Shown one piece after another: positions 40,060 to 49,292 of a DNA stretch of 57,252 nt. The stretch comes from an uncultured Alphaproteobacteria bacterium (GTDB taxonomy: Bacteria; Pseudomonadota; Alphaproteobacteria; HIMB59; GCA-002718135), in the NCBI GenBank assembly GCA_902525035.1, contig CABZFN010000008.1, positions 1-57,252 on the forward strand, written 5' to 3'. A program made the position numbers and the translations under genes. Below the pieces are notes generated by a model that was not told the DNA's origin, made no database searches, and saw only the letters and a program-made list of their open reading frames with translations. Position 1 is the stretch's first letter. Every line of letters starts with the position of its first letter.

Positions 40060-40857
40060 ATGTCTCTTGAAGCAATAAGATTTAAAAAATCGAATCCAAA
40101 TTTAAATTATAAGGATATGGCTTTATCTGATCTTCAAAAACTTCCTGTGCATAATGGAATTATTGATTTTAAAATAACAAAAATATCTTTCTTAATGTTA
40201 AATGTCTTAAATGATGATTCATCTGTAACTAAGTATTTTTGGAAAGATTCTCATGATTTAGTATCATTGGATCTATGGTATGAAATTTCTACAGAAAAAG
40301 GAACTTTTATTGATGTTGGTGCACATACTGGTTTATATTCTTTAGTAAGTTTAAAAGCAAATAAGGAAAATAATGTAATATGCTTTGAGCCACATTTCTT
40401 GAATATGGCAAGATTAATAACAAATTTAAGATTAAATGGGTTAACAAAAAATATATCAACTATTTTAGCAGCTGCATCAAACTTTACAGGAAAAACTAAA
40501 TTTAAAATTTTAACAGAAAAATCATACTTATCAAAAGGTGGAAAAATTGACAGAGAAGGAACTCAGGTTGATGTCTTTGCTCTAGATGACTTATTTTTTG
40601 GAAAGTTACAGAAACCCTTGAGAGCAATTAAAATAGATACAGAAGGTGAAGATTATAAAGTATTGCTTGGATCTGAAAAATTAATTAGTAAATATAAACC
40701 AAAGATTATCATCGAAGTAAGAGATGAAAATAAATTAAATGTTAGCAAGTTTTTAAAAAAATACGACTATAAATTTTTTGATGTGTTGGATTTAAAAAAA
40801 GAAATACAAATAGAAAACATAAAAATAGATGATATGATAAATATATTTGCTGAGTAA
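40060..40857 (+). CDS. FkbM family methyltransferase
   Basis: A 265-residue SAM-dependent methyltransferase of the FkbM family (PF05050), usually acting on glycans or natural products. The SAM-binding loop is GTFIDVGAHTGLYSL, followed by NVICFEPHFLNMARLITN, and the family-typical IKIDTEGEDYKVLLG with IIIEV near the C-terminus. The N-terminal 70 residues form a less conserved extension. It is the last plus-strand gene before the tRNA-associated cassette array, 13 nt from the first array gene. Confidence 0.88.
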   Translation: MSLEAIRFKKSNPNLNYKDMALSDLQKLPVHNGIIDFKITKISFLMLNVLNDDSSVTKYFWKDSHDLVSLDLWYEISTEKGTFIDVGAHTGLYSLVSLKANKENNVICFEPHFLNMARLITNLRLNGLTKNISTILAAASNFTGKTKFKILTEKSYLSKGGKIDREGTQVDVFALDDLFFGKLQKPLRAIKIDTEGEDYKVLLGSEKLISKYKPKIIIEVRDENKLNVSKFLKKYDYKFFDVLDLKKEIQIENIKIDDMINIFAE

Positions 40858-40870
40858 CAAAAATATTAAT

Positions 40871-41155
40871 TTATCTTCTATCTAAAATTATTGAAACACA
40901 ATAATTTGTTATATCATTAAATTTTTCTGTCTCAACATAATCTTCATCATCCAATAATTCTTCTATTGAATATTTTTTAGAAATTTCACTAGTAAGACAA
41001 CCACAAATAAAAAATTGTTCACCAACTGACATAGATAAACCAACATTTTCTCCTAAACATCCTTCATTATATGAATTTAATAATTCTTTATCTTTAATTT
41101 CAGCAAAGGTTGCAGATGAAAAAAATAAAATAAAGATTGTAAATGAAAATTTCAT
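40871..41155 (-). CDS. Small secreted protein with CGC motif (array family C), copy 1
   Basis: Unrecognised family. The ATG at 41155 (94 aa) is preferred to a longer TTG start because it gives a signal peptide ending around TFAE and the same length as its paralogue at 46816-47100. Shared features are a first cysteine in NEGCLGENV, then SVGEQFFICGCLTSEI, the acidic YSIEELLDD and a last cysteine in TNYC. The four cysteines suggest two disulfides in the periplasm or outside the cell. A pair of 11-bp repeats and a tRNA-Gly fragment lie just upstream. Confidence 0.65.
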   Translation of the reverse strand: MKFSFTIFILFFSSATFAEIKDKELLNSYNEGCLGENVGLSMSVGEQFFICGCLTSEISKKYSIEELLDDEDYVETEKFNDITNYCVSIILDRR

Positions 41156-41171
41156 AATTTGTTTTATTAAA

Positions 41172-41193
41172 ACTGTATTGTAACTGTATTGCA
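41172..41193. repeat. Paired 11-bp direct repeats (ACTGTATTGTA, ACTGTATTGCA)
   Basis: Two adjacent 11-nt units, differing at one base, lie 16 nt upstream of the family C gene (copy 1) and 35 nt from the tRNA-Gly fragment at 41229. Same geometry as seven other pairs in the array. Confidence 0.75.
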
Positions 41194-41228
41194 AATAGAT
41201 TTTAAAATTTAAAGGAAGAATTGGGATT

Positions 41229-41264
41229 TGGAGTGGTCGAATGAATTCGAACTGTCGACTTCAA
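41229..41264 (-). repeat. Partial tRNA-Gly 3' fragment, leftmost copy
   Basis: 36 nt that align with the 3' end of the intact tRNA-Gly at 49218-49292 (same strand, from CCA through the T arm into the variable region) with about six substitutions. It is too short to be a tRNA. It is the farthest fragment from the intact gene. Confidence 0.8.
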
Positions 41265-41283
41265 AATAAAAATTTACTATTTT

Positions 41284-41856
41284 TTAATTCAATCCGTAGT
41301 TTCTATCAACCCAATCAGAAACTGATTCTGACTGAATACTAATACCAATATTTTTTGGAAAGTTCGTATTTATATCCCAATCGTAACAGGTTACTGATGC
41401 TCGTCCACCTTTATCAAACAAAAAATATGTTCCGGTATAAGTAGATTTCCCAGATGAATCGTCGAAATGGGTAGTTTTGTCCTGGTCTATTATTTCTGAA
41501 TTTTTAAATGTAACAGACAAAATTTCTACAATTTCATTCTTTTTTTTATAGCAGTCATTAATGTTATTATAATCTTTTCTACCGTTTAAAGACTGAATAA
41601 TAAATTTTTTATCATCTGGAATATAATAAAATTGAAAAACATCATACAATTCATCTTTTGACTCTAACTCAATTATCCTAAATTTCATATCTGAGGGATA
41701 ATCATCATAATTTAAAGCATTTTCAATTTCGTATTTAGAAAAATAATTAAGCAAACTATCTCCGATTGACATTTCACCTATCTCAAAATCTGAAACATCC
41801 TCTGCAACCAATGAAGACGAAAATAGCAAAACAAATAGTGTGAGAAAGATTTTCAT
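41284..41856 (-). CDS. Secreted protein, array family A, copy 1
   Basis: A 190-residue protein of unknown function and one of four paralogues in this array (others start at 43453, 46065 and 46750). It has a signal peptide with LLFSSSLVAED. The family then shows DFEIGEMSIGDSLLNYFS, a lone cysteine in NINDCYKKKNEI, DDSSGKST, and CYDWD near the end. Two conserved cysteines suggest one disulfide and a periplasmic or outer-membrane location. I recall similar sequences in SAR11-like genomes but cannot verify it. It is the last of three genes between the fragments at 41229 and 42791. Confidence 0.7.
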   Translation of the reverse strand: MKIFLTLFVLLFSSSLVAEDVSDFEIGEMSIGDSLLNYFSKYEIENALNYDDYPSDMKFRIIELESKDELYDVFQFYYIPDDKKFIIQSLNGRKDYNNINDCYKKKNEIVEILSVTFKNSEIIDQDKTTHFDDSSGKSTYTGTYFLFDKGGRASVTCYDWDINTNFPKNIGISIQSESVSDWVDRNYGLN

Positions 41857-41889
41857 AATATTTTTAAATAATTTATATACATATTTTAG

Positions 41890-42276
41890 TTAGTTGCATG
41901 TTCCAGACCAAATAGTATGTTCATGAACATCTCCAGCGGTTGAAGTTGTGTATACAAAGATTTTCTTATCAAGATTTATTGACATTGAGGTTATACCAGG
42001 GACATCTATCCATGAGTCTTCTTCTACTGCTCTAATTTTACCATCTACATTACTAATAATATCAAGAAGGACTTTAAAATAATAATCAACCACCTTCCAC
42101 TCTAAATTAATTTGGTTATTTTCTAAATTAATTTCTAATGTAGAAATTCTATCTTCATAGTCTATCCATACACCATCTGATGATCCATGAATTTTTGCAA
42201 GGCAAAATAACTTTATATCCTTTGAAAATACCTGAGAAGAAAATAATAAAATGATCAATATAAGAAAAGTTTTCAT
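41890..42276 (-). CDS. Secreted protein, array family B, copy 1
   Basis: A 128-residue protein of unknown function. The ATG at 42276 is chosen over a TTG three codons earlier. Signal peptide to about QVFSKD. The mature part has an early cysteine (KLFCLAK), WIDYEDRISTLEINLENN and ends TIWSGTCN. Its relative at 43617-44030 shares the WID(Y/L)E segment and the terminal G(T/F)CN, so the two cysteines probably pair. A pair of 11-bp repeats lies 18 nt upstream without an intervening tRNA fragment. Confidence 0.62.
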   Translation of the reverse strand: MKTFLILIILLFSSQVFSKDIKLFCLAKIHGSSDGVWIDYEDRISTLEINLENNQINLEWKVVDYYFKVLLDIISNVDGKIRAVEEDSWIDVPGITSMSINLDKKIFVYTTSTAGDVHEHTIWSGTCN

Positions 42277-42294
42277 AATTATCAAAATAGTAAA

Positions 42295-42316
42295 ACTCTA
42301 TTGTAACTCTATTGCA
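42295..42316. repeat. Paired 11-bp direct repeats (ACTCTATTGTA, ACTCTATTGCA)
   Basis: Two adjacent units differing at one base, between the family B gene start (42276) and the end of the next gene (42320). No tRNA-Gly remnant remains beside this pair. Confidence 0.75.
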
Positions 42317-42319
42317 AGT

Positions 42320-42715
42320 CTAATTAACATTACAATCAGCAAAAATAGAAAGCGTAAAGAAATTTTCATCGGGCGAATGAATAGATAAACTAAAATTACC
42401 ATCCGCTAGATATAAGGTTGAAAAAGGGAGTATATATGGTTTAAATTCTACCTCTAAATCTTGTTTTGCCATTACATTTTCATCTCTTGTTACAAGAATT
42501 TCATATATGGATTCACTATCGATAACTACTGTATCTTTTTTCCAACTAAGTCCAAATCTGCTGTTAATTTCTATACCACTATCACTTACTCCAGAAGGTG
42601 TACTTTTGTTAACATATGTTATTAGGCAAGTATAATTATCGCCTTCTGCTGCAAACATCGAAGATGAAATAAACAAAAAGGAGAGTGTAAAAAGAATTTT
42701 AATTAACATTTTCAT
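42320..42715 (-). CDS. Secreted protein of the cassette array, distant family B-like
   Basis: A 131-residue protein of unknown function. Signal peptide with FLFISSSMFAAE, cleavage around residue 22. The mature part has an early cysteine (YTCLITYVNK), mid segments rich in Ser and Glu, and a late cysteine (FADCNVN). The overall two-cysteine layout resembles family B, but the similarity is too weak to be sure of common descent. It is first on the leftward transcript after the fragment at 42791. Confidence 0.6.
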   Translation of the reverse strand: MKMLIKILFTLSFLFISSSMFAAEGDNYTCLITYVNKSTPSGVSDSGIEINSRFGLSWKKDTVVIDSESIYEILVTRDENVMAKQDLEVEFKPYILPFSTLYLADGNFSLSIHSPDENFFTLSIFADCNVN

Positions 42716-42733
42716 AATCTCATTTTATTTAAA

Positions 42734-42755
42734 ACTATATTGCAACTGAATTGCA
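42734..42755. repeat. Paired 11-bp direct repeats (ACTATATTGCA, ACTGAATTGCA)
   Basis: Two adjacent units, 18 nt upstream of the gene starting at 42715 and 35 nt from the tRNA-Gly fragment at 42791. Confidence 0.72.
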
Positions 42756-42790
42756 AATGAAATCTCAAAATTAAAGGTGGGTTTAGAATT

Positions 42791-42820
42791 TAGAGCGGGC
42801 GAAAAGATTCAAATTCTCGA
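42791..42820 (-). repeat. Partial tRNA-Gly 3' fragment
   Basis: 30 nt matching the acceptor 3' strand and T arm of the intact tRNA-Gly with about six substitutions; GAGCGGGCGAA is retained. Confidence 0.78.
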
Positions 42821-42877
42821 CCCGTTTAAAGTATATACTATGAAGTACTATTTTAAGACTTTGATTTAAAATTATTT

Positions 42878-43453
42878 TTAATTATAAGCATTTTCTAAAA
42901 ATTTAGAATAATCTTCAGTCATAATATTTATTCTAAGTGAATCAGTATAAGGGTACTTATCTGCCCAATCATAACATTGAATTATAATTCTACCTTCATC
43001 ATCTAAATACAACTCAATATCTGTTACTTTACTTTTACCTGATTTATCATATGGGTGTTCATAAGTAGATTTGCCTAAATCTAAAATATCTACAAATAAT
43101 TTTTTTATTTCTTTAGATATACTGTCTATTTGTTCATAACATTCATTAATATTATTTCTTTGATAGAAAACAAAACCAGATATATTTACAATTTCATAAT
43201 TTTTATCATTAGTTTTAACTGAAATTTGAAAACTTTCATAAGTTAATGAATTTGGTAAATAAAGTTCAGCGATTGGAGTGTATAATGATGTATCAAACCA
43301 ATTTAATTCTTTATTTTTTTCTAATTGTTCTCTTGAAAAATAATCTAGCGCGCTATCACCGATACTAATTCCTTCTATTTGAAAATCTGTAATATCATCT
43401 GCAAACATTGAAGACGAAAACAGCAAAAAGAAGAGTGTTAGAAAAATTCTCAT
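42878..43453 (-). CDS. Secreted protein, array family A, copy 2
   Basis: A 191-residue family A paralogue. I start it at the ATG 43453; a longer frame uses a TTG inside the upstream repeat pair. The signal peptide (FFLLFSSSMFADD) and the first mature residues DFQIEGISIGDSALDYFS are almost identical to copy 3 at the DNA level, while the rest has diverged. NINECYEQIDSI, DKSGKS and CYDWAD are conserved. Function is unknown. Confidence 0.68.
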   Translation of the reverse strand: MRIFLTLFFLLFSSSMFADDITDFQIEGISIGDSALDYFSREQLEKNKELNWFDTSLYTPIAELYLPNSLTYESFQISVKTNDKNYEIVNISGFVFYQRNNINECYEQIDSISKEIKKLFVDILDLGKSTYEHPYDKSGKSKVTDIELYLDDEGRIIIQCYDWADKYPYTDSLRINIMTEDYSKFLENAYN

Positions 43454-43471
43454 AATTTCTTTTAATATAAA

Positions 43472-43493
43472 ACTAAATTGCAACTTAATTGCA
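43472..43493. repeat. Paired 11-bp direct repeats (ACTAAATTGCA, ACTTAATTGCA)
   Basis: Adjacent units upstream of family A copy 2, 35 nt from the tRNA fragment at 43529; identical to the pair at 46084-46105 because both lie in the 192-bp repeat. Confidence 0.75.
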
Positions 43494-43528
43494 AATGGAA
43501 TTTAAAATTTAAAGGTGTAATTGGGATT

Positions 43529-43553
43529 TGGAGTGGGGAAGGGTTTCGAATTC
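43529..43553 (-). repeat. Partial tRNA-Gly 3' fragment, degraded
   Basis: TGGAGTGGGGAAGGG and the following TTCGAA correspond to the CCA end, acceptor and T loop of tRNA-Gly with one deletion and several substitutions. Identical to 46141-46165 over this length. Confidence 0.72.
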
Positions 43554-43616
43554 ATCACTTGCTTCAACAAAACCAAGTTATAAAACAAATTCTACGTAAA
43601 CTATATTGAAAGAATA

Positions 43617-44030
43617 CTAATTACAAAAACCTTCATAGATAGATATCCCATATTCACTATAATATATATATGTTAACATCTTAAATTTTTGGTCAAATAT
43701 GATGCTATGAAAATCATTATTGTTAAATTGTAAATTTTCATTAGCAAAAATATATCGATTAGTTTCTTTAACTTCATAAAATTCAATTGGTGGATAATCA
43801 TTCTCAATAAATTTTTCTTCAAGTATGATCATTGATAATTGATTTCCCTGATCTAAAAAAAGTACATTATAATTCTCTAGGTCTATCCATTCATCATAAG
43901 GTATACCGTCTATTAAATTTGGATCTGTGACTGAATTATTTTTTACATGAATTTTGAGATTACAATCATATTCTAAAGATAATAGTGGTGGTGATAAGAA
44001 AATAAGAGTAAAAATAATTAAAATCCTCAT
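43617..44030 (-). CDS. Secreted protein, array family B, copy 2
   Basis: A 137-residue protein of unknown function. Signal peptide to about LLSLEY. Mature part with an early cysteine (YDCNLKIHVKNN), DEWIDLENYNVLFLDQGNQL and the terminal SIYEGFCN, paralleling the gene at 41890-42276. The segment between the fragments at 43529 and 44107 holds only this gene. A perfect copy of ACTATATTGAA lies at 43600-43610, just past its stop, matching the repeat pair at its other end. Confidence 0.65.
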   Translation of the reverse strand: MRILIIFTLIFLSPPLLSLEYDCNLKIHVKNNSVTDPNLIDGIPYDEWIDLENYNVLFLDQGNQLSMIILEEKFIENDYPPIEFYEVKETNRYIFANENLQFNNNDFHSIIFDQKFKMLTYIYYSEYGISIYEGFCN

Positions 44031-44049
44031 AATATAGAAGTCATATAAA

Positions 44050-44071
44050 ACTATATTGAAAGTATATTGAA
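44050..44071. repeat. Paired 11-bp direct repeats (ACTATATTGAA, AGTATATTGAA)
   Basis: Adjacent units 19 nt upstream of family B copy 2 and 35 nt from the tRNA fragment at 44107. The surrounding about 70 nt resemble the stretch at 47109-47180. Confidence 0.78.
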
Positions 44072-44106
44072 GAACTTTTTAAAAAAATTAGATTAGAGTT
44101 TAAATT

Positions 44107-44155
44107 TGAAGCATGCGAAGGAATTCGAACCCTTGACTTCAATCTTGGCAAGGTT
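44107..44155 (-). repeat. Long partial tRNA-Gly 3' fragment (to anticodon arm)
   Basis: 49 nt aligned with the 3' half of the intact tRNA-Gly, from the CCA end through T arm and variable region to the anticodon loop TTGGCAA, with about six substitutions. It lies in the 317-nt gene-free stretch 44031-44347, which otherwise holds two repeat pairs. Confidence 0.85.
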
Positions 44156-44235
44156 TCCTAGTAGAAATGATTTGAATTTTCCCTCAATTTATGTGGGATA
44201 ATTTTAAACAAAGCTTAGTCTTATAATCGAATTAA

Positions 44236-44257
44236 CGCCCCCAATATGTTCCCAATA
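44236..44257. repeat. Paired 11-bp repeats (CGCCCCCAATA, TGTTCCCAATA), left end of the sulfotransferase cassette
   Basis: Two adjacent 11-nt units ending CCCAATA, a degraded form of the GTGTCCCCA pair at the other end of the same segment. Confidence 0.6.
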
Positions 44258-44347
44258 GAGAGATGTCTGAGTATTGAAAGCAACAATAACGAAAACTAAC
44301 AAAGAGGTAAATTGTAATTGTTTAATAATCTCACTTTATCCTAATTA

Positions 44348-45175
44348 CTAAATATAATTAAAATACTTCATTAATGGTTGTAAATTATTATCTATAATTT
44401 CAATTTGTGTGTTTGATAAAATTTCTTTCCATTGATTTGATGTTCCAGATCTGAAAAATTTTGAATGCTTAGATGCTTCATCGAAACCATTTGAGGTTTC
44501 TTGAAATTGTAAAATTTTGAAGTTAGTATTTTTTGTAATCTTATCAATATTTTTTTTATTATTTAAAATATTTTTATTCGTAATTATATTTATAAAAGTG
44601 ATAATTTTGAATATCATGTCATTTGTTTTAAATAATAGATCTTCATATCTAATAAACAAACTTGGGACACTTTTGTATTCTAACCAAGATTTAATATTTA
44701 ATTCCCAATTAGAAACCAATTCTCTAGCACCATTTGCATTCGTCATAAGTTGTTTATTAAAAACAACTTGATTTATAGCTTCATCCAAATTTATTCCAGT
44801 AAACTTACTTAATGACACAACTACATCTCTAGGATCTCGCACAATATAAATAAAACCTGCATTTACAGTTTCATTTGTAAAACTTTTATGCCTCACACTA
44901 TGAGTCTTGAAAAAATAATTATATTTAGTATTTTGATTAAGTTTATTTTGACATAAAATAAGGTTTCTTGACATCCAGTCATAATCTATCAATCCTTTTT
45001 TATCATAAATCTTATTTTTAAATGAAGTAAAGTTCATTTTATCTGATAACAATCTAATTTTTGATAAATCTTTTATGTTGATAATATTGTTTTGTTGTAG
45101 TGAGGAAAGAATTATTGATCTAAGCCAAGTATTGCCAGATTTAGGATATGAAGCCAAAAAAATATTTTTAAACAC
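44348..45175 (-). CDS. Sulfotransferase family protein (array cassette)
   Basis: A 275-residue PAPS-dependent sulfotransferase-like protein. The phosphosulfate loop is LASYPKSGNTWLRSIIL at the N-terminus, and FIYIVRDPRDVVVSLSKF is the 3'-phosphate motif. LFIRYEDLLFKTN and the C-terminal FFRSGTSNQWKEIL complete the set. It is a relative of the gene at 27157-28059. It is the only gene between two tRNA-Gly fragments (44107 and 45382) and, unlike the neighbouring small secreted proteins, an enzyme. Acceptor unknown. Confidence 0.85.
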   Translation of the reverse strand: MFKNIFLASYPKSGNTWLRSIILSSLQQNNIINIKDLSKIRLLSDKMNFTSFKNKIYDKKGLIDYDWMSRNLILCQNKLNQNTKYNYFFKTHSVRHKSFTNETVNAGFIYIVRDPRDVVVSLSKFTGINLDEAINQVVFNKQLMTNANGARELVSNWELNIKSWLEYKSVPSLFIRYEDLLFKTNDMIFKIITFINIITNKNILNNKKNIDKITKNTNFKILQFQETSNGFDEASKHSKFFRSGTSNQWKEILSNTQIEIIDNNLQPLMKYFNYI

Positions 45176-45325
45176 TAAAAAATATTTAGAAAATTAATTT
45201 TAATTTAATATTACAAATTTAAATATTTAATTTTTTTAATAAATATAATTAGTATTTTTAAAAGTTTATATCTGGTAATAAAATTAAATATAATATTTTT
45301 CTTAAAATATTATTTTAATATGTGA

Positions 45326-45347
45326 AGTGTCCCCAGTGTGTCCCCAT
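45326..45347. repeat. Paired repeats with GTGTCCCCA at 11-bp period, right end of the sulfotransferase cassette
   Basis: GTGTCCCCA occurs at 45327-45335 and 45338-45346. It sits in the 317-nt gene-free stretch 45176-45492, 35 nt left of the tRNA fragment at 45382. The stretch between the gene and this pair is AT-rich with nothing else recognisable. Confidence 0.78.
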
Positions 45348-45381
45348 ATTATTTTTTTATTTTATAAATTGGTGATTTTAT

Positions 45382-45410
45382 TGGGGCGAGCGAAGGGATT
45401 CAAACTCGAC
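45382..45410 (-). repeat. Partial tRNA-Gly 3' fragment
   Basis: Retains CGAAGGGATTC and CTCGAC of the acceptor/T-arm region with small deletions relative to the intact tRNA-Gly. Confidence 0.72.
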
Positions 45411-45492
45411 CCGCTTTCGTTAGTAAATATAAAAAATATTAGGGCAACAGAACACAGAACTCCCCACTTTTATAATTTCCCTTTGCTTCCTC

Positions 45493-46065
45493 TTATTTTC
45501 GCTGCTTTAACCATTGACTTACTTCTTCAGTATTTAAATTAATCATTAAAACGTCAAAGAAACTAATTTTTTCTGAATAATCATAACATTCTACTGCTAT
45601 TTCATCATTAGAGTGCAAAATAAAATAGGTATAATAAATCGTTGATTTACCTGAGTCATCAAAAGAAGGTATAAATTTTGATTCTGATACCTCAGCATTT
45701 GGAAACATAAATCTAAAATCATTTACAATTTTTTTCTTGAGTTCTAGACAATCACTTATACTTATTTTCTTTCTGCCATTAATCTGATGAATAATATATT
45801 TTTTGTCCAAATCATTAGTAACAATAAATGAAATCAAATCATAATTTTTTGTCTTTTTGTGTAAAAATATTTCTGCAAATTCTTCAGTTTTATAATTATA
45901 TAATTCATTTATGCTATAATCTATATCTTCTTTAATATGATCTTCATCCAAATATTTTAAAAGACTATCTCCAATACTAATTCCTTCTATTTGAAAATCT
46001 GAAATATCATCTGCAAACATTGAAGACGAAAACAGCAAAAAGAAGAGTGTTAGAAAAATTCTCAT
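45493..46065 (-). CDS. Secreted protein, array family A, copy 3
   Basis: A 190-residue family A paralogue starting at ATG 46065. Signal peptide FFLLFSSSMFADD and DFQIEGISIGDSLL are shared with copy 2 through a 192-bp near-identical DNA block. Downstream, the protein differs strongly from copy 2 but keeps the family positions: a cysteine in SISDCLELKKKI, FDDSGKST and CYDYSE. This suggests a conserved export module joined to a variable body. Function unknown. Confidence 0.68.
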   Translation of the reverse strand: MRIFLTLFFLLFSSSMFADDISDFQIEGISIGDSLLKYLDEDHIKEDIDYSINELYNYKTEEFAEIFLHKKTKNYDLISFIVTNDLDKKYIIHQINGRKKISISDCLELKKKIVNDFRFMFPNAEVSESKFIPSFDDSGKSTIYYTYFILHSNDEIAVECYDYSEKISFFDVLMINLNTEEVSQWLKQRK

Positions 46066-46165
46066 AATTTCTTTTAATATAAAACTAAATTGCAACTTAA
46101 TTGCAAATGGAATTTAAAATTTAAAGGTGTAATTGGGATTTGGAGTGGGGAAGGGTTTCGAATTC
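45974..46165. repeat. 192-bp near-identical direct repeat, right copy
   Basis: Partner of 43362-43553; one mismatch seen, at 46001. Both copies end inside the tRNA-Gly fragment. Confidence 0.9.
46084..46105. repeat. Paired 11-bp direct repeats (ACTAAATTGCA, ACTTAATTGCA)
   Basis: Identical to 43472-43493; 18 nt upstream of the start of family A copy 3 and 35 nt from the tRNA fragment at 46141. Confidence 0.75.
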
Positions 46166-46170
46166 TCGAC
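46141..46170 (-). repeat. Partial tRNA-Gly 3' fragment
   Basis: 30 nt matching the CCA end, acceptor strand and T arm with one deletion and about four substitutions. Confidence 0.75.
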
Positions 46171-46183
46171 CTACTTAATATGG

Positions 46184-46750
46184 TTATTTATAAGCAGAGT
46201 TTTTTATCCAATTTAAGAAATCCGTTTTTTCTATTGATACCTTTAAGGTATCCATATAACCCATTTGTTCTGTCCAATCAGTACAGACAACTTTTATAAC
46301 AAAATTATCATTACGAAATTCACTTACACTAGCAATACTTTTCCCAGATTTATCTGCATTATGTGAATGATCGTATTCATCATTTTCCATGTTCTGAAAT
46401 AAATAAGCAATATCATCATAAATTTGATTTTTTTTATCATAACACTCATTAATATTATTTGGATAATCTAGAAAACCAGTAACACTATCTATGATATAGT
46501 TCTTATCAGAACTCTTAAAATGTAATTGAATAGCATCATAAACTTTAAATGATGGTAAAAATTCTAATTCAGTAACTAAATATGTTGTATCTGTATAATA
46601 ATTTTTGAAATTATTTTTTATTTCCTTCTCACTAAAGAAATCCAAAGCACTATCTCCAATACTTATTCCCTCAATCTGAAAGTCTGAAATATCCTCTGGC
46701 AACACCGAAGATGAAAACAACAAAACAAAGAGTGTGAGTAGATTTTTCAT
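46184..46750 (-). CDS. Secreted protein, array family A, copy 4
   Basis: A 188-residue family A paralogue. Signal peptide LFVLLFSSSVLPED, then DFQIEGISIGDSALDFFS, a cysteine in NINECYDKKNQI, DKSGKS and a variant CTDWTE where the others have CYDW. It ends with FLNWIKNSAYK. The segment between fragments at 46141 and 47175 holds this gene and family C copy 2. A degenerate 11-bp pair lies upstream without a tRNA remnant. Function unknown. Confidence 0.68.
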   Translation of the reverse strand: MKNLLTLFVLLFSSSVLPEDISDFQIEGISIGDSALDFFSEKEIKNNFKNYYTDTTYLVTELEFLPSFKVYDAIQLHFKSSDKNYIIDSVTGFLDYPNNINECYDKKNQIYDDIAYLFQNMENDEYDHSHNADKSGKSIASVSEFRNDNFVIKVVCTDWTEQMGYMDTLKVSIEKTDFLNWIKNSAYK

Positions 46751-46768
46751 AATTTCTTATAACATAAA

Positions 46769-46790
46769 AATGTAATGCAAATATGTTGAA
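46769..46790. repeat. Degenerate 11-bp repeat pair (AATGTAATGCA, AATATGTTGAA)
   Basis: Position and spacing match the other pairs, but the two units agree poorly; included because it sits 18 nt upstream of the gene starting at 46750. Confidence 0.45.
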
Positions 46791-46815
46791 AATGGAAATA
46801 GAAAAAATTCAGATA

Positions 46816-47100
46816 TTAAAAACCAATTTTTTTATTACAATCTGTAATAATTCTAATATATTTTCTATTTTCAAGAAGTCCTCCAGATGAGAATATGTCA
46901 AGTATTTCATCAATCTCAAATTCCTCATAAATACCATGTGTTGAGCAACCACAATATTCAAATGCTTGACCAATGCTAACCCTATCAACAGCAGTTTTTA
47001 AACATCCATCATTCATTTTTTTTAAGTATTCCATTTTCCATTCATTTGCCTGTAATAGTGTTGAAAAAAATAAAACAAAGATTGTGATAAGGATTTTCAT
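46816..47100 (-). CDS. Small secreted protein with CGC motif (array family C), copy 2
   Basis: A 94-residue paralogue of the gene at 40871-41155. Signal peptide to about LLQANEW. Shared pattern: NDGCLKTAV, SIGQAFEYCGCSTHGI, EIDEILDI and a final cysteine in ITDCNKK. The four conserved cysteines suggest an exported disulfide-bonded protein; no known family recognised. Its leader contains the only perfect 11-bp repeat pair of the array and the best preserved tRNA fragment lies just beyond. Confidence 0.66.
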   Translation of the reverse strand: MKILITIFVLFFSTLLQANEWKMEYLKKMNDGCLKTAVDRVSIGQAFEYCGCSTHGIYEEFEIDEILDIFSSGGLLENRKYIRIITDCNKKIGF

Positions 47101-47118
47101 AATTTCATTTCATATAAA

Positions 47119-47140
47119 ACTATATTGAAACTATATTGAA
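47119..47140. repeat. Perfect paired 11-bp direct repeats (two copies of ACTATATTGAA)
   Basis: Two identical adjacent units, 18 nt upstream of family C copy 2 and 35 nt from the tRNA fragment at 47175. Confidence 0.82.
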
Positions 47141-47174
47141 GAACTTTTTAAAAAATAAGACTGGAGTTAGAATT

Positions 47175-47223
47175 TGGAGCGGGCGAAGGGATTCGAACCC
47201 TAGACTTCAACCTTGGCAAGGTT
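47175..47223 (-). repeat. Long partial tRNA-Gly 3' fragment, nearest to the intact gene
   Basis: 49 nt identical to the intact tRNA-Gly 3' half except one base (47202). It runs from the CCA end to the anticodon arm and stops after AAGGTT, where the match ends abruptly. Confidence 0.93.
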
Positions 47224-47281
47224 AAAATTAGATTATTGTTTTTGATGGAATTTGTAGATTTTAATTTATATTAAGTTTTTA

Positions 47282-47303
47282 TGTCACACTCTTGGCACAA
47301 TAA
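47282..47303. repeat. Paired 11-bp repeats (TGTCACACTCT, TGGCACAATAA), left end of AOX cassette
   Basis: TGTCACA and TGGCACA at an 11-bp period, 58 nt right of the tRNA fragment. The same units recur at the other end of the segment. Confidence 0.68.
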
Positions 47304-47391
47304 TAACAATAAAGCTTAAAAAATTAATTCGTAGCTTTAAATAACCTTTATTACCTGATGTATATGGATAATTAGTGCCTATATTAATATC

Positions 47392-48063
47392 ATGGAATAC
47401 TTGTCTAAACATCATAAACCAAAAAATTTTAGTGATAAAATTGCATTGGCATTTACTAAATTCTTAAGGTTTCTAGCTGATACTTTTTTTAGAAAAAAAT
47501 ACGGTCATAGAGCAGTTGTTTTAGAAACAGTTGCAGCTGTACCAGGTATGGTTGCTGGTATGTTAATACACCTTAAATCTTTACGAAAAATGCAAGATGA
47601 TAATGGTTGGATTAAAACATTACTTGATGAAGCTGAGAATGAAAGAATGCATCTAATGACATTTATTAAAATCGCTCAACCAACACTCATTGAAAGAATA
47701 ATAATTTTATTAGCACAGTTCATATTTATCATTTTTTATTTAATCATATATTTATTATCACAAAGAACTGCTCATAGGATTGTTGGGTATTTTGAGGAAG
47801 AAGCTGTAATAAGTTACACTGAATATTTAAAAGAGGTAGAGGAAGGTAAAATTGAGAACGTTAAAGCTCCCGAAATAGCTATAAATTACTGGAACCTCCC
47901 CTTAAATTCTAAATTAAAAGATGTTATTAAAGTTATTAGAGATGATGAAGCTGGTCACAGAGATGTGAATCATAGTTTTGCAAATATACTTAATACCAAA
48001 AAGAAAAGTTACAAAATTGATAATGAGAATAATAGCAAGAAAATTAGCAATTTAAAAATTTAG
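47392..48063 (+). CDS. aox: Alternative oxidase (cyanide-insensitive ubiquinol oxidase)
   Basis: AOX oxidises ubiquinol and reduces oxygen to water without pumping protons, using a di-iron centre instead of haem. The 223-residue protein contains all six iron ligands in the family's order: E45 in LETVAAVPGM, E84 and H87 in AENERMHLM, E136 in YFEEEAV, and E186 and H189 in DDEAGHRDVNH. TLLDEAENERMHL and RTAHRIVGY are strongly AOX-specific, so this is not COQ7. Two hydrophobic stretches (near 45-62 and 100-122) fit a monotopic membrane protein. It lacks the plant regulatory cysteine region. It lies inside the tRNA-Gly-bounded segment. Confidence 0.95.
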   Translation: MEYLSKHHKPKNFSDKIALAFTKFLRFLADTFFRKKYGHRAVVLETVAAVPGMVAGMLIHLKSLRKMQDDNGWIKTLLDEAENERMHLMTFIKIAQPTLIERIIILLAQFIFIIFYLIIYLLSQRTAHRIVGYFEEEAVISYTEYLKEVEEGKIENVKAPEIAINYWNLPLNSKLKDVIKVIRDDEAGHRDVNHSFANILNTKKKSYKIDNENNSKKISNLKI

Positions 48064-48199
48064 TGAAAAAGTTTGAATTTAATTAAAAAATTAGATAATT
48101 CTAAATTAATAATAAATATAAAAAGAACAAATATTACATATAGTATCTGGTAAAAAAAATAATTGTTTTAAAAAAATTTTTATCGGTTAGATAAATAAT

Positions 48200-48502
48200 A
48201 TGTTCGTAGCAATGAATAGGTTTAAGATTTTAATTGGTAAAGAAAACGATTTTGAAAAAGTTTGGAAAAATAGAGAAACACACTTAGATAAAGTTCCAGG
48301 ATTTCAAAACTTTAACTTAATTAAAGGTAAAACTACAGATGAATATACCCTGTATGCCTCTCATAGCATATGGAATTCTGAAGAAGATTTCATTAACTGG
48401 ACAAAATCAGAAGAGTTTCGTCTAGCCCATAGAAATGCGGGGAATAATAAACATCTTTATTTAGGTCATCCAGAATTTGAGGGGTTTACAAAAATACTAT
48501 AA
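48200..48502 (+). CDS. Antibiotic biosynthesis monooxygenase-fold protein, HmoA/IsdG-like
   Basis: A 100-residue dimeric alpha-beta-barrel protein. MFVAMNRFKILIGKENDFEKVWKNRE and VPGFQNFNLIKG, then YASHSIWNSEEDFINWTKSEEF and FRLAHRNAG, match the haem-degrading or ABM-type monooxygenases seen in many alphaproteobacteria, including the asparagine of MNRF and tryptophan of the SxW motif. Haem degradation is a family-based inference. The following gene overlaps or abuts it. Confidence 0.75.
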   Translation: MFVAMNRFKILIGKENDFEKVWKNRETHLDKVPGFQNFNLIKGKTTDEYTLYASHSIWNSEEDFINWTKSEEFRLAHRNAGNNKHLYLGHPEFEGFTKIL

Positions 48503-48509
48503 AATTTTA

Positions 48510-49118
48510 ATGAAAAAAATTTTTATTGCTTTTGGTCATCATAATTATAAAGACTCTTTTAATTCAGCAATTAGAGATACTTTTGTAGATGAAGCAAAGA
48601 GACTTGGTCATGAAATTGACTTGGTTAATCTCTTTGAGGAAAAGGAGCAGCTTCCATTTTATAATCAAAATATAAACCCTCCTCCAAAACTTGTTCTTGA
48701 ATACAGAAAAAGATTAGAAAAATGTTCTGTCATGATGTTAATTGGAAGTTGTCATAATTTAAGGCTTAATGCAATTCTAGAAAATTGGGTAGACTGGGTA
48801 CTTCATCCTAAATGGTTTTTTTCTTATAAATCTCTGATACCAGGTAATAAATATTTTAAAAACTATGGTTACCCTGTTCCAGGAGCAATGAGGGGTAAAC
48901 TTGGAATTATTTCGATTACTTATGGGGGTCCAATGATTAGTTACCAAAATTTTTCAATTTTTGATAACATACCATTTAGAAGAATTAAGAAAGTAGTATT
49001 TAAATTAGGTGGTTTAAAAACAAAATATATTCGATTTTATTCAGTTTTGCCAAATATGGAAAAAAAGATATTCGATAAGCATATGTTAAAAGTCAAAAAA
49101 TTAGCTAGAAGCCTGTAA
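48510..49118 (+). CDS. Flavodoxin-fold NAD(P)H oxidoreductase
   Basis: A 202-residue protein of the flavodoxin_2/KefF-MdaB type (PF02525). The start at ATG 48510 is preferred to 48477, which would begin inside the previous gene. It opens KKIFIAFGHHNYKDSFNSAI, the FMN/FAD loop of the family. LGHEIDLVNLF, the central CSVMMLIGSCHNLRLNAILENWVDWVL and GKLGIISITYGGP follow the expected order. The usual PLYW stretch is altered. It probably reduces quinones or flavins. It is 7 nt from the monooxygenase gene. Confidence 0.75.
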   Translation: MKKIFIAFGHHNYKDSFNSAIRDTFVDEAKRLGHEIDLVNLFEEKEQLPFYNQNINPPPKLVLEYRKRLEKCSVMMLIGSCHNLRLNAILENWVDWVLHPKWFFSYKSLIPGNKYFKNYGYPVPGAMRGKLGIISITYGGPMISYQNFSIFDNIPFRRIKKVVFKLGGLKTKYIRFYSVLPNMEKKIFDKHMLKVKKLARSL

Positions 49119-49132
49119 AAGACTATTTTTTC

Positions 49133-49154
49133 TGTCACACTGGTGTCACAATAA
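49133..49154. repeat. Paired 11-bp repeats (TGTCACACTGG, TGTCACAATAA), right end of AOX cassette
   Basis: TGTCACA at 49133 and 49144, exactly 11 bp apart, 63 nt left of the intact tRNA-Gly. A variant pair lies at 47282-47303. Confidence 0.78.
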
Positions 49155-49217
49155 GGATTTAAAATTAGAAAGTTTTAAAAAACTTAGCAGACAAAAGAGA
49201 AGGTTTGTGGGGTTTAT

Positions 49218-49292
49218 TGGAGCGGGCGAAGGGATTCGAACCCTCGACTTCAACCTTGGCAAGGTTGCGCTCTACCCCTGAGCTACGCCCGC
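49218..49292 (-). tRNA. tRNA-Gly (anticodon GCC)
   Basis: On the minus strand the sequence folds as a full cloverleaf: acceptor GCGGGCG pairing with CGCCCGC, D arm GCTC/GAGC, anticodon stem CAACC/GGTTG with loop TTGCCAA, T arm with TTCGAAT. Discriminator T and encoded CCA follow (75 nt including CCA). The anticodon arm is nearly palindromic, a frequent feature of phage-type attachment sites. Its 3' end faces the cassette array, and seven partial copies lie to its left. The retinal operon is on the other side. Confidence 0.97.

Follow-up and report, generated by a model that had tools for sequence, protein, structure and literature searches.

The DNA studied here, called the window, is the whole 57,252-nt stretch of contig CABZFN010000008.1 from an uncultured alphaproteobacterium whose assembly is 78% complete in 46 contigs. 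It contains a tRNA-Gly(GCC) gene and, on the 3' side of this gene, an array of small units separated by seven partial copies of the same gene. Outward from the tRNA, the array holds a unit with alternative oxidase, monooxygenase-domain and flavodoxin-fold genes, then secreted-protein-like units, a sulfotransferase unit and more secreted-protein-like units. The features are given below in this order; short direct repeats that look like integrase arm sites are called arms, proximal on the tRNA side of a unit and distal on the other.

49218-49292, minus strand: intact tRNA-Gly(GCC), the current insertion site (ARAGORN)
47224-49217: newest cassette, about 2.0 kb, between the intact tRNA and the nearest fragment; both ends bear the arm word TGTGACA
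49133-49150, minus strand: proximal arm pair of the newest cassette, TGTGACA-CCAG-TGTGACA
48510-49118, plus strand: Flavodoxin_2-fold gene (PF02525, E=8.8e-17); start chosen, the open reading frame (ORF) can begin further upstream
48200-48502, plus strand: antibiotic-biosynthesis-monooxygenase-domain (ABM) gene (PF03992, E=1e-14)
47392-48063, plus strand: alternative oxidase (AOX) gene (PF01786, E=8.4e-87)
47282-47299, minus strand: distal arm pair of the newest cassette, TGTGCCA-AGAG-TGTGACA
47175-47223, minus strand: tRNA-Gly fragment, 49 nt, 98%, anticodon stem to CCA (alignment)
46171-47174: segment with secreted-protein-like genes 46816-47100 and 46184-46750, minus strand; proximal arm 47124-47141, no distal arm found
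46141-46170, minus strand: tRNA-Gly fragment, short class, 84%, end approximate (alignment)
45412-46140: segment with secreted-protein-like gene 45493-46065, minus strand; proximal arm 46089-46106, no distal arm found
45382-45411, minus strand: tRNA-Gly fragment, short class, 84%, end approximate (alignment)
44156-45381: sulfotransferase cassette, gene 44348-45175, minus strand (PF00685); proximal arm 45327-45345 with a GGGGACA word, distal arm 44234-44253 degenerate and missed by the word scan
44107-44155, minus strand: tRNA-Gly fragment, 49 nt, 88%, anticodon stem to CCA (alignment)
43554-44106: segment with secreted-protein-like gene 43617-44030, minus strand; proximal arm 44055-44072
43529-43553, minus strand: tRNA-Gly fragment, score 29, end approximate, leader in common with 46141
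42822-43528: segment with secreted-protein-like gene 42878-43453, minus strand; proximal arm 43477-43494
42791-42821, minus strand: tRNA-Gly fragment, short class, 83% (alignment)
41265-42790: segment with secreted-protein-like genes 42320-42715, 41890-42276 and 41284-41856, minus strand; arm pairs 42739-42756 and 42300-42317
41229-41264, minus strand: tRNA-Gly fragment, 36 nt, 83%, the farthest recognised (alignment)
40871-41228: innermost unit with secreted-protein-like gene 40871-41155, minus strand; arm pair 41177-41194; distal end not recognised, an FkbM gene (40060-40857) being next

The arm pair at 42300-42317 lies directly before the gene 41890-42276 without a recognised tRNA fragment, and is perhaps a cassette joint whose fragment was lost.

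All seven fragments align to the 3' part of the intact tRNA in the same orientation, as the first-pass annotation of this DNA had claimed. Their local scores were 93 (47175), 35 (46141), 36 (45382), 68 (44107), 29 (43529), 33 (42791) and 42 (41229), whereas shuffling 6.3 kb of the array 200 times with a Markov model gave a median best score of 17 and a maximum of 25. Elsewhere in the window, the best scores against the tRNA were 23 and 19 on the two strands. A score of 28 on the opposite strand of the array is probably due to the palindromic anticodon stem. The shuffles and the strand control rule out chance similarity or another repeat family as the source of the fragments. The weakest of them, 43529, sits in a leader that is repeated at 46055-46149. 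The two longest fragments do run from the CCA end into the anticodon stem, and the stated absence of a recombinase gene is borne out by zero PF00589 matches among the window proteins.

The locus was then compared across the genus. A 25-nt pattern of the tRNA 3' end, with at most 3 mismatches, matched in 100 of the 102 genus genomes, often in clusters, some of the matches belonging to a similar other site. The locus sample consists of the window and 82 fetched regions, one per genome, giving 83 loci from 83 of the 102 genomes (G-numbers denote genomes of the genus, L-numbers fetched loci and C-numbers contigs). The selection of the first 40 regions was made partly by multiple matches, and related cassettes are not independent in the counts. 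The genomes outside the sample are G003, G004, G005, G008, G015, G016, G029, G040, G044, G045, G047, G052, G053, G055, G072, G074, G089, G098 and G101; among these, tRNA-Gly matches occur in G003, G004 (whose region L134 is outside the analysed set), G015, G040, G044 and G055, and the remaining ones gave no tRNA-Gly match or a match only to the similar other site.

The intact tRNA was present at 78 of the 83 loci, and 133 fragments reached the genus-wide cut-off of a local score of at least 30. At least one fragment was found at 66 loci, at least two at 39 and at least three at 15. At the loci with an intact tRNA, all 123 fragments lie on its 3' side, as had been proposed from the window, with zero on the 5' side, and two opposite-strand hits reached a score of 30 (maximum 31). 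Mean identity to the tRNA decreased with rank from it, being 97.9% (n=61), 95.1% (36), 92.6% (14) and 89.1% (12) for successive ranks (rho -0.47, p 4e-8). One-sidedness and decay of identity of this kind are expected if insertion at the tRNA proceeded stepwise. Of the 133 fragments, 61 retain 51 nt of the tRNA and a further 24 retain 49, 50 or 52 nt (49-51 nt: 83), this long class ending at the 5' side of the anticodon stem; a short class of 23-37 nt (34/133) ends in or near the T arm. Since the short fragments form a separate length class tied to one arm word, they do not appear to be simply eroded long copies. Integrase subfamilies reportedly differ in crossover position within tRNA genes (Williams 2002). 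Neighbouring sites delimit 128 segments with a median of 1,234 bp, of which 86 are below 1.5 kb; the cut-off drops the window fragment 43529, and two window units thus count as one segment. At one locus (L054, from G020), the distal repeat is a 73-nt tRNA-Gly copy still called a gene by ARAGORN.

Segment ends carry direct-repeat pairs with a period of about 11 bp, one pair following the CCA end and another preceding the distal core. The arm word is often common to both ends of a unit and differs between units. When no word list was used, the similarity between a unit's own two ends was 20.08 across 90 cluster representatives vs 16.06 (sd 0.19) after permutation, a value reached in 0 of 10,000 permutations, and 61% of the 128 segments were singly ranked in the top 5%. 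Calls made with a word list, whose false-call rates on shuffled sequence were 0.2% and 0.8%, gave a proximal pair in 103 of the 128 segments, a distal one in 87 and both in 76. The same word class stood at both ends in 72 of these 76 segments, compared with a mean of 8.8 and a maximum of 19 under shuffled pairing. The word also goes with the crossover: the distal core is 23-36 nt long in 24/24 segments with the CAATAnA word and 46-73 nt long in 87/90 segments with other words, the exceptions being in G018, G021 and G061. Sulfotransferases that are 88-90% identical are found behind two different arm words.

The period-11 repeats look like integrase arm sites because repeats of the same type lie directly upstream of integrase genes, an association that comparison of the loci shows at the level of sequence. 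Of 20 recombinase ORFs, 16 have such a repeat within 130 bp upstream, against a null rate of 0.7%, and nine different words occur; the repeat is lacking at the ORFs of L086, L256, L262 and L266. The set of 20 includes near-identical ORFs and two that are possibly not integrases. Among these ORFs are ones at tRNA-Arg, -Leu and -Val, the Val one having a TGTGACA word. According to the account in PMC8138268, integrases of mobile elements typically have arm sites near the core to which their N-terminal domain binds, and in one large integrase subgroup this domain is made of three strands and a helix. The idea that the leaders are promoters only was rejected, the arms being present at distal ends too; a double role is possible. 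Between 41177 and 47141 of the window, only a few tens of bp separate CAATAnA-type arms from the start codons of the secreted-protein-like genes that follow, and integrase binding there could affect the expression of these genes. A similar repeat was seen by eye at tRNA-Gln, and related integrases or tandem repeats occur at tRNA-Arg(ACG), Leu(CAA), Gln(TTG), Val(GAC) and Leu(TAA) (L084, L117, L118, L121, L122, L130-L132).

A full tyrosine integrase was found in 9 of the 128 segments, none of them in the window (tblastn with four queries, PF00589 hits in the same regions agreeing). Six of these segments, in G020, G030, G056, G067, G077 and G079, measure 5-14 kb and have the TGTGACA word; the other three have the proximal words TCCGACA (G017), GGTCACA (G021) and CGTCTCC (G032). 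Integrase-less units bear TGTGACA in nine cases, TCCGACA in four and GGTCACA in one. The newest window cassette is among the nine, and so carries the arm word of integrases found at tRNA-Gly in other genomes. In 8/8 segments with a CGCTCCA word, a 45-119 aa integrase N-terminus is kept at the proximal end, indicating that loss of the integrase with the arms kept can be seen. The AlphaFold2 model of the G017 integrase (mean pLDDT 85.8, pTM 0.58) predicts three strands and a helix at residues 2-49 and matches the folds of Tn1549 and lambda integrases; as the Tn1549 structures are devoid of the N-terminal 81 residues, the arm-binding reading draws on the lambda matches together with the secondary structure that the model predicts. 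The first-pass annotation had postulated a single shared integrase encoded elsewhere. This is not supported, since arm words and crossover classes differ, and the evidence is for several integrases with different arm words, which sister genomes encode on larger elements inserted at this tRNA. The first-pass annotation had also suggested looking for an integrase whose attachment site matches the tRNA 3' half; the window's own assembly, at 78% completeness, has one PF00589 match, on contig C6, and no matching integrase.

Among the integrase-bearing units scanned, the cargo includes type III restriction-modification genes (G056, G077) and an MMPL transporter (G021), and a sample of cargo genes scanned for satellite-type genes contained a DUF5906/phage-primase-like gene in the 5.8-kb unit of G032. 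The integrase-less units scanned carry type II restriction-modification (G013), type I/IIG-like (G035) and HNH nuclease (G002) genes. A tRNA-Ser(TGA) sequence is present in 17 of the 128 cassettes (e.g. L047:4650-4739); 16 of the 17 copies lie 140-158 bp from the distal fragment, and the 17th is 799 bp off on the other strand. It is complete in five GTCCCAC-word sulfotransferase units, and its 5' parts are found in seven GGGACA-word units and four others; it is possibly a portable second insertion target. The exact 49-nt tRNA-Gly core was found in one viral contig (IMG/VR, L114), which is GC-rich and phage-like, beside a 409-aa integrase-like ORF. A viral reservoir was rejected on this count of one core-bearing viral contig and on viral integrase relatives of only 24-32% identity among the best 80 matches listed.

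Cassette number and order vary between relatives, from no fragment to at least three, as the first-pass annotation had anticipated. In G012, a unit coding for an 86-aa protein is closer to the tRNA than the GGGACA-word sulfotransferase unit; in G023 it is farther from the tRNA than that unit. Whole segments are common to 165 genome pairs, and in 83 of these the identity of the segment exceeds that of the 2.6-kb flank by more than 2 points. Unit and flank identities are 99.9% vs 82.4% for G066/G069, 99.6% vs 81.9% for G012/G076, 99.4% vs 83.3% for G043/G095, and 96.4-96.5% vs 83.1% for the newest unit of the window and G062. The match stops at both cores in three of the nine profiled pairs (G012/G076, G035/G066 and window/G062), and the G012/G076 unit is internal in one genome and adjoins the tRNA in the other. 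In G066/G069, G043/G095 and G025/G096, where both units adjoin the tRNA, the match has an exact distal end, and on the other side it extends across the tRNA and on into the flank. Among the 30 pairs with flanks at least 96.5% identical, some of whose regions end early, a tRNA-adjoining unit is common only to G075/G095, and the flank itself may have been exchanged between genomes.

Taken together, we consider it likely that the array is a stack of integrative cassettes moved by arm-matched tyrosine integrases acting in trans. The free unit, presumably circular, would carry an attachment site (attP) made of a core, corresponding to the tRNA-Gly 3' part, with a tandem arm pair of 11-bp period on each side. 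A tyrosine integrase of the lambda/Tn916 type would recombine this core with the chromosomal tRNA, which would be rebuilt with the incoming 3' part, the displaced 3' part being left as a fragment where the new unit ends, away from the tRNA. Repeated insertion would stack the units with the newest adjoining the tRNA, and the integrase of a larger element at the same site, having a matching arm word, could act in trans on the integrase-less units. Repeated one-sided insertion, core-to-core sharing of integrase-less units and matching end words are the parts that comparison of the sequences shows, and they agree with the earlier proposal of an array grown from tiny, mostly integrase-less cassettes. 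We infer from them the binding of the repeats by integrases, the action in trans, the circular form and a vehicle between cells. The cassettes often carry one to three genes, mostly without their own integrase, and apparently rely on the enzymes of larger neighbours.

Several observations weigh against this proposal. Neither excision nor a circle or an empty site was observed. The sampled loci yielded no integrase with the CAATAnA (24 units), GGGACA (17) or GTAGCC (13) word, and none matching was found in the window's own assembly, at its 78% completeness. Only two window units possess both a proximal and a distal arm, and in one of these the distal arm is degenerate; genus-wide, 52 of the 128 segments are without a called arm at one or both ends, and the own distal arm ranked in the top 5% for only 47 of the 90 clusters. 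The word list was drawn from the same ends, so that its informative part is the pairing test, in which four of the 76 segments (G017, G021, G023 and G091, the first two integrase-bearing) had unlike words. As for sharing, G011/G091 have in common only 2.36 kb from the distal core (99.3%) with different proximal ends, the G010/G012 match extends beyond the distal core, and window/G021 reaches only 88%. The pattern that the first-pass annotation had named as contrary to its proposal, conserved order with vertical divergence, was not seen in relatives; yet 60 of the 165 sharing pairs have a cassette whose divergence exceeds that of the flank by more than 2 points. With the 83 closer pairs, this points to a mixture of recent transfers and of older units that are shared or paralogous.

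The units could also be decayed remnants of autonomous elements, moved only in cis with a complete neighbour and now eroding, like the cis-mobilizable elements (CIMEs) described in PMC5704250. The integrase N-termini beside the proximal arm of the CGCTCCA-word segments and the lack of distal arms in older window units speak for such decay, which we nevertheless regard as unlikely: single integrase-less units are common core to core at different positions and with different neighbours (G012/G076, G035/G066, window/G062), and units of 0.5 kb and 1.2 kb recur with both arms. This sharing of single units makes movement solely in cis less likely. A second possibility is that the window array arose mainly by local tandem duplication of secreted-protein genes whose leader happened to hold a tRNA fragment. 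The secreted-protein-like genes do form small paralogous sets, and their window units bear CAATAnA-type proximal arms. One family is represented in the array by four paralogues and another by two, with a third group of three that aligns weakly (22-28% identity); 43308-43564 is 89% identical to 45920-46176; and a second tandem set of four first-family paralogues lies on contig C6 (L011:5365-8179; G000:C6:25365-28179), no tRNA being called by ARAGORN in L011. Local duplication may account for the spread of part of the older half. As an explanation of the array it is improbable, leaving unexplained the AOX and sulfotransferase units, the recurrence at the same tRNA elsewhere and the order differences. 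We give very little weight to homologous recombination on the 51-nt repeats and flanks, with the arms as relics: 45 of the 61 51-nt fragments are identical to the tRNA, and some pairs with a very similar flank but unlike arrays suggest flank exchange, but matching end words, the link between arm class and retained length, and one-sidedness are not predicted by it. Finally, the simple tyrosine recombinase of contig C6 is scarcely credible as the shared mover, for although it is the only PF00589 match of its assembly and ORFs of similar size recur in many genomes, it matches only the catalytic family with no arm-binding domain, no tRNA gene is called in its locus or in the loci L102-L113 of 12 relatives, and other integrases sit at tRNA-Gly with matching arm words. 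This recombinase (L010:1126-2193; L102-L113) is about 350-385 aa long and is found in many genomes of the genus.

Returning to arm-matched integrases acting in trans, a broader reading, on which our confidence is evenly balanced, is that genes are exchanged almost one at a time, integron-like in effect and by another mechanism. The species of one genus would share a pool of integrase-less cassettes, each arm word addressing one of many phage-type integrases at tRNA-Gly; the arm class would fix the crossover, so that at least two integrase families would feed one array, and cargo could change address. Should arm words indeed direct cassettes without an integrase to particular integrases, the sequence of a cassette would predict the enzyme that moves it, and it could be asked directly which ecological genes travel in the pool, such as the alternative oxidase set, sulfotransferases and restriction systems. 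The locus also offers many natural pairs of integrase and arm site around one common core. To our knowledge, few mobile elements have been recognised in streamlined ocean bacteria although genes are exchanged, and in the accounts examined small tRNA-linked cassettes were noted without a mover.

Among known systems, the first-pass annotation had pointed to tycheposons, which likewise consist of tRNA-bordered cargo with a tyrosine recombinase in streamlined marine bacteria. The tRNA-bordered cargo holds here; size and recombinase do not, as tycheposons are described as 4-200 kb long with a recombinase (PMC10872708, PMC11389934), against a median of 1.2 kb and a recombinase in 9/128 segments, even if the integrase-bearing units of 5-14 kb would fit their size range. 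More generally for elements at tRNA genes, the same-orientation fragment on the 3' side is the rule here (123/123) and an own integrase the exception. CIMEs and tandem accretion resemble the array in that att-flanked, integrase-less units are stacked in tandem at one target. CIMEs, in the description of PMC5704250, no longer have genes for integration and transfer and are moved along with a neighbour, whereas gene-sized units are common singly here, many with att ends and arms kept and one arm class with an integrase remnant. Integron cassettes and clusters of attC sites lacking integron integrases (CALINs) are likewise gene-sized arrayed units whose integrase need not be adjacent (PMC11389934). 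Here the joints coincide with tRNA-Gly 3' fragments with arm pairs, and an N-terminal arm-binding-like fold is predicted for the integrases at this tRNA.

The additive tRNA-cassette islands of other streamlined aquatic bacteria are closer. The 'Ca. Actinomarinales' have an additive flexible genomic island (fGI) of gene cassettes inserted at tRNAs with a tell-tale tRNA repeat, according to PMC7771536; as there, streamlined marine hosts carry small tRNA-targeted cassettes, with a partial tRNA repeat at the cassette end and content varying between close genomes. The main text of that account does not contain the word integrase, and its passages on these cassettes give no arm sites; unlike in it, one tRNA-Gly is used here by several kinds of integrase, and many end words match. 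The additive fGI-2 of 'Ca. Methylopumilus' also has repeated tRNA 3' ends, the last 20 nt of tRNA-Lys in varying number, compared with mostly 49-51 nt and a 23-37-nt class here; its islands range from 330 bp to 42 kb and hold mostly genes of unknown function. The passages of PMC10872708 on fGI-2 give no mover or arm sites, a xerC integrase being named for other small insertions and occasionally for other islands. In the open-access literature searched, with subscription papers mostly outside, we noticed no description of arm words common to integrases and integrase-less tRNA cassettes. Cassettes targeted at tRNAs are the known part of the system, and the proposed addressing by arm sites appears to be the new one.

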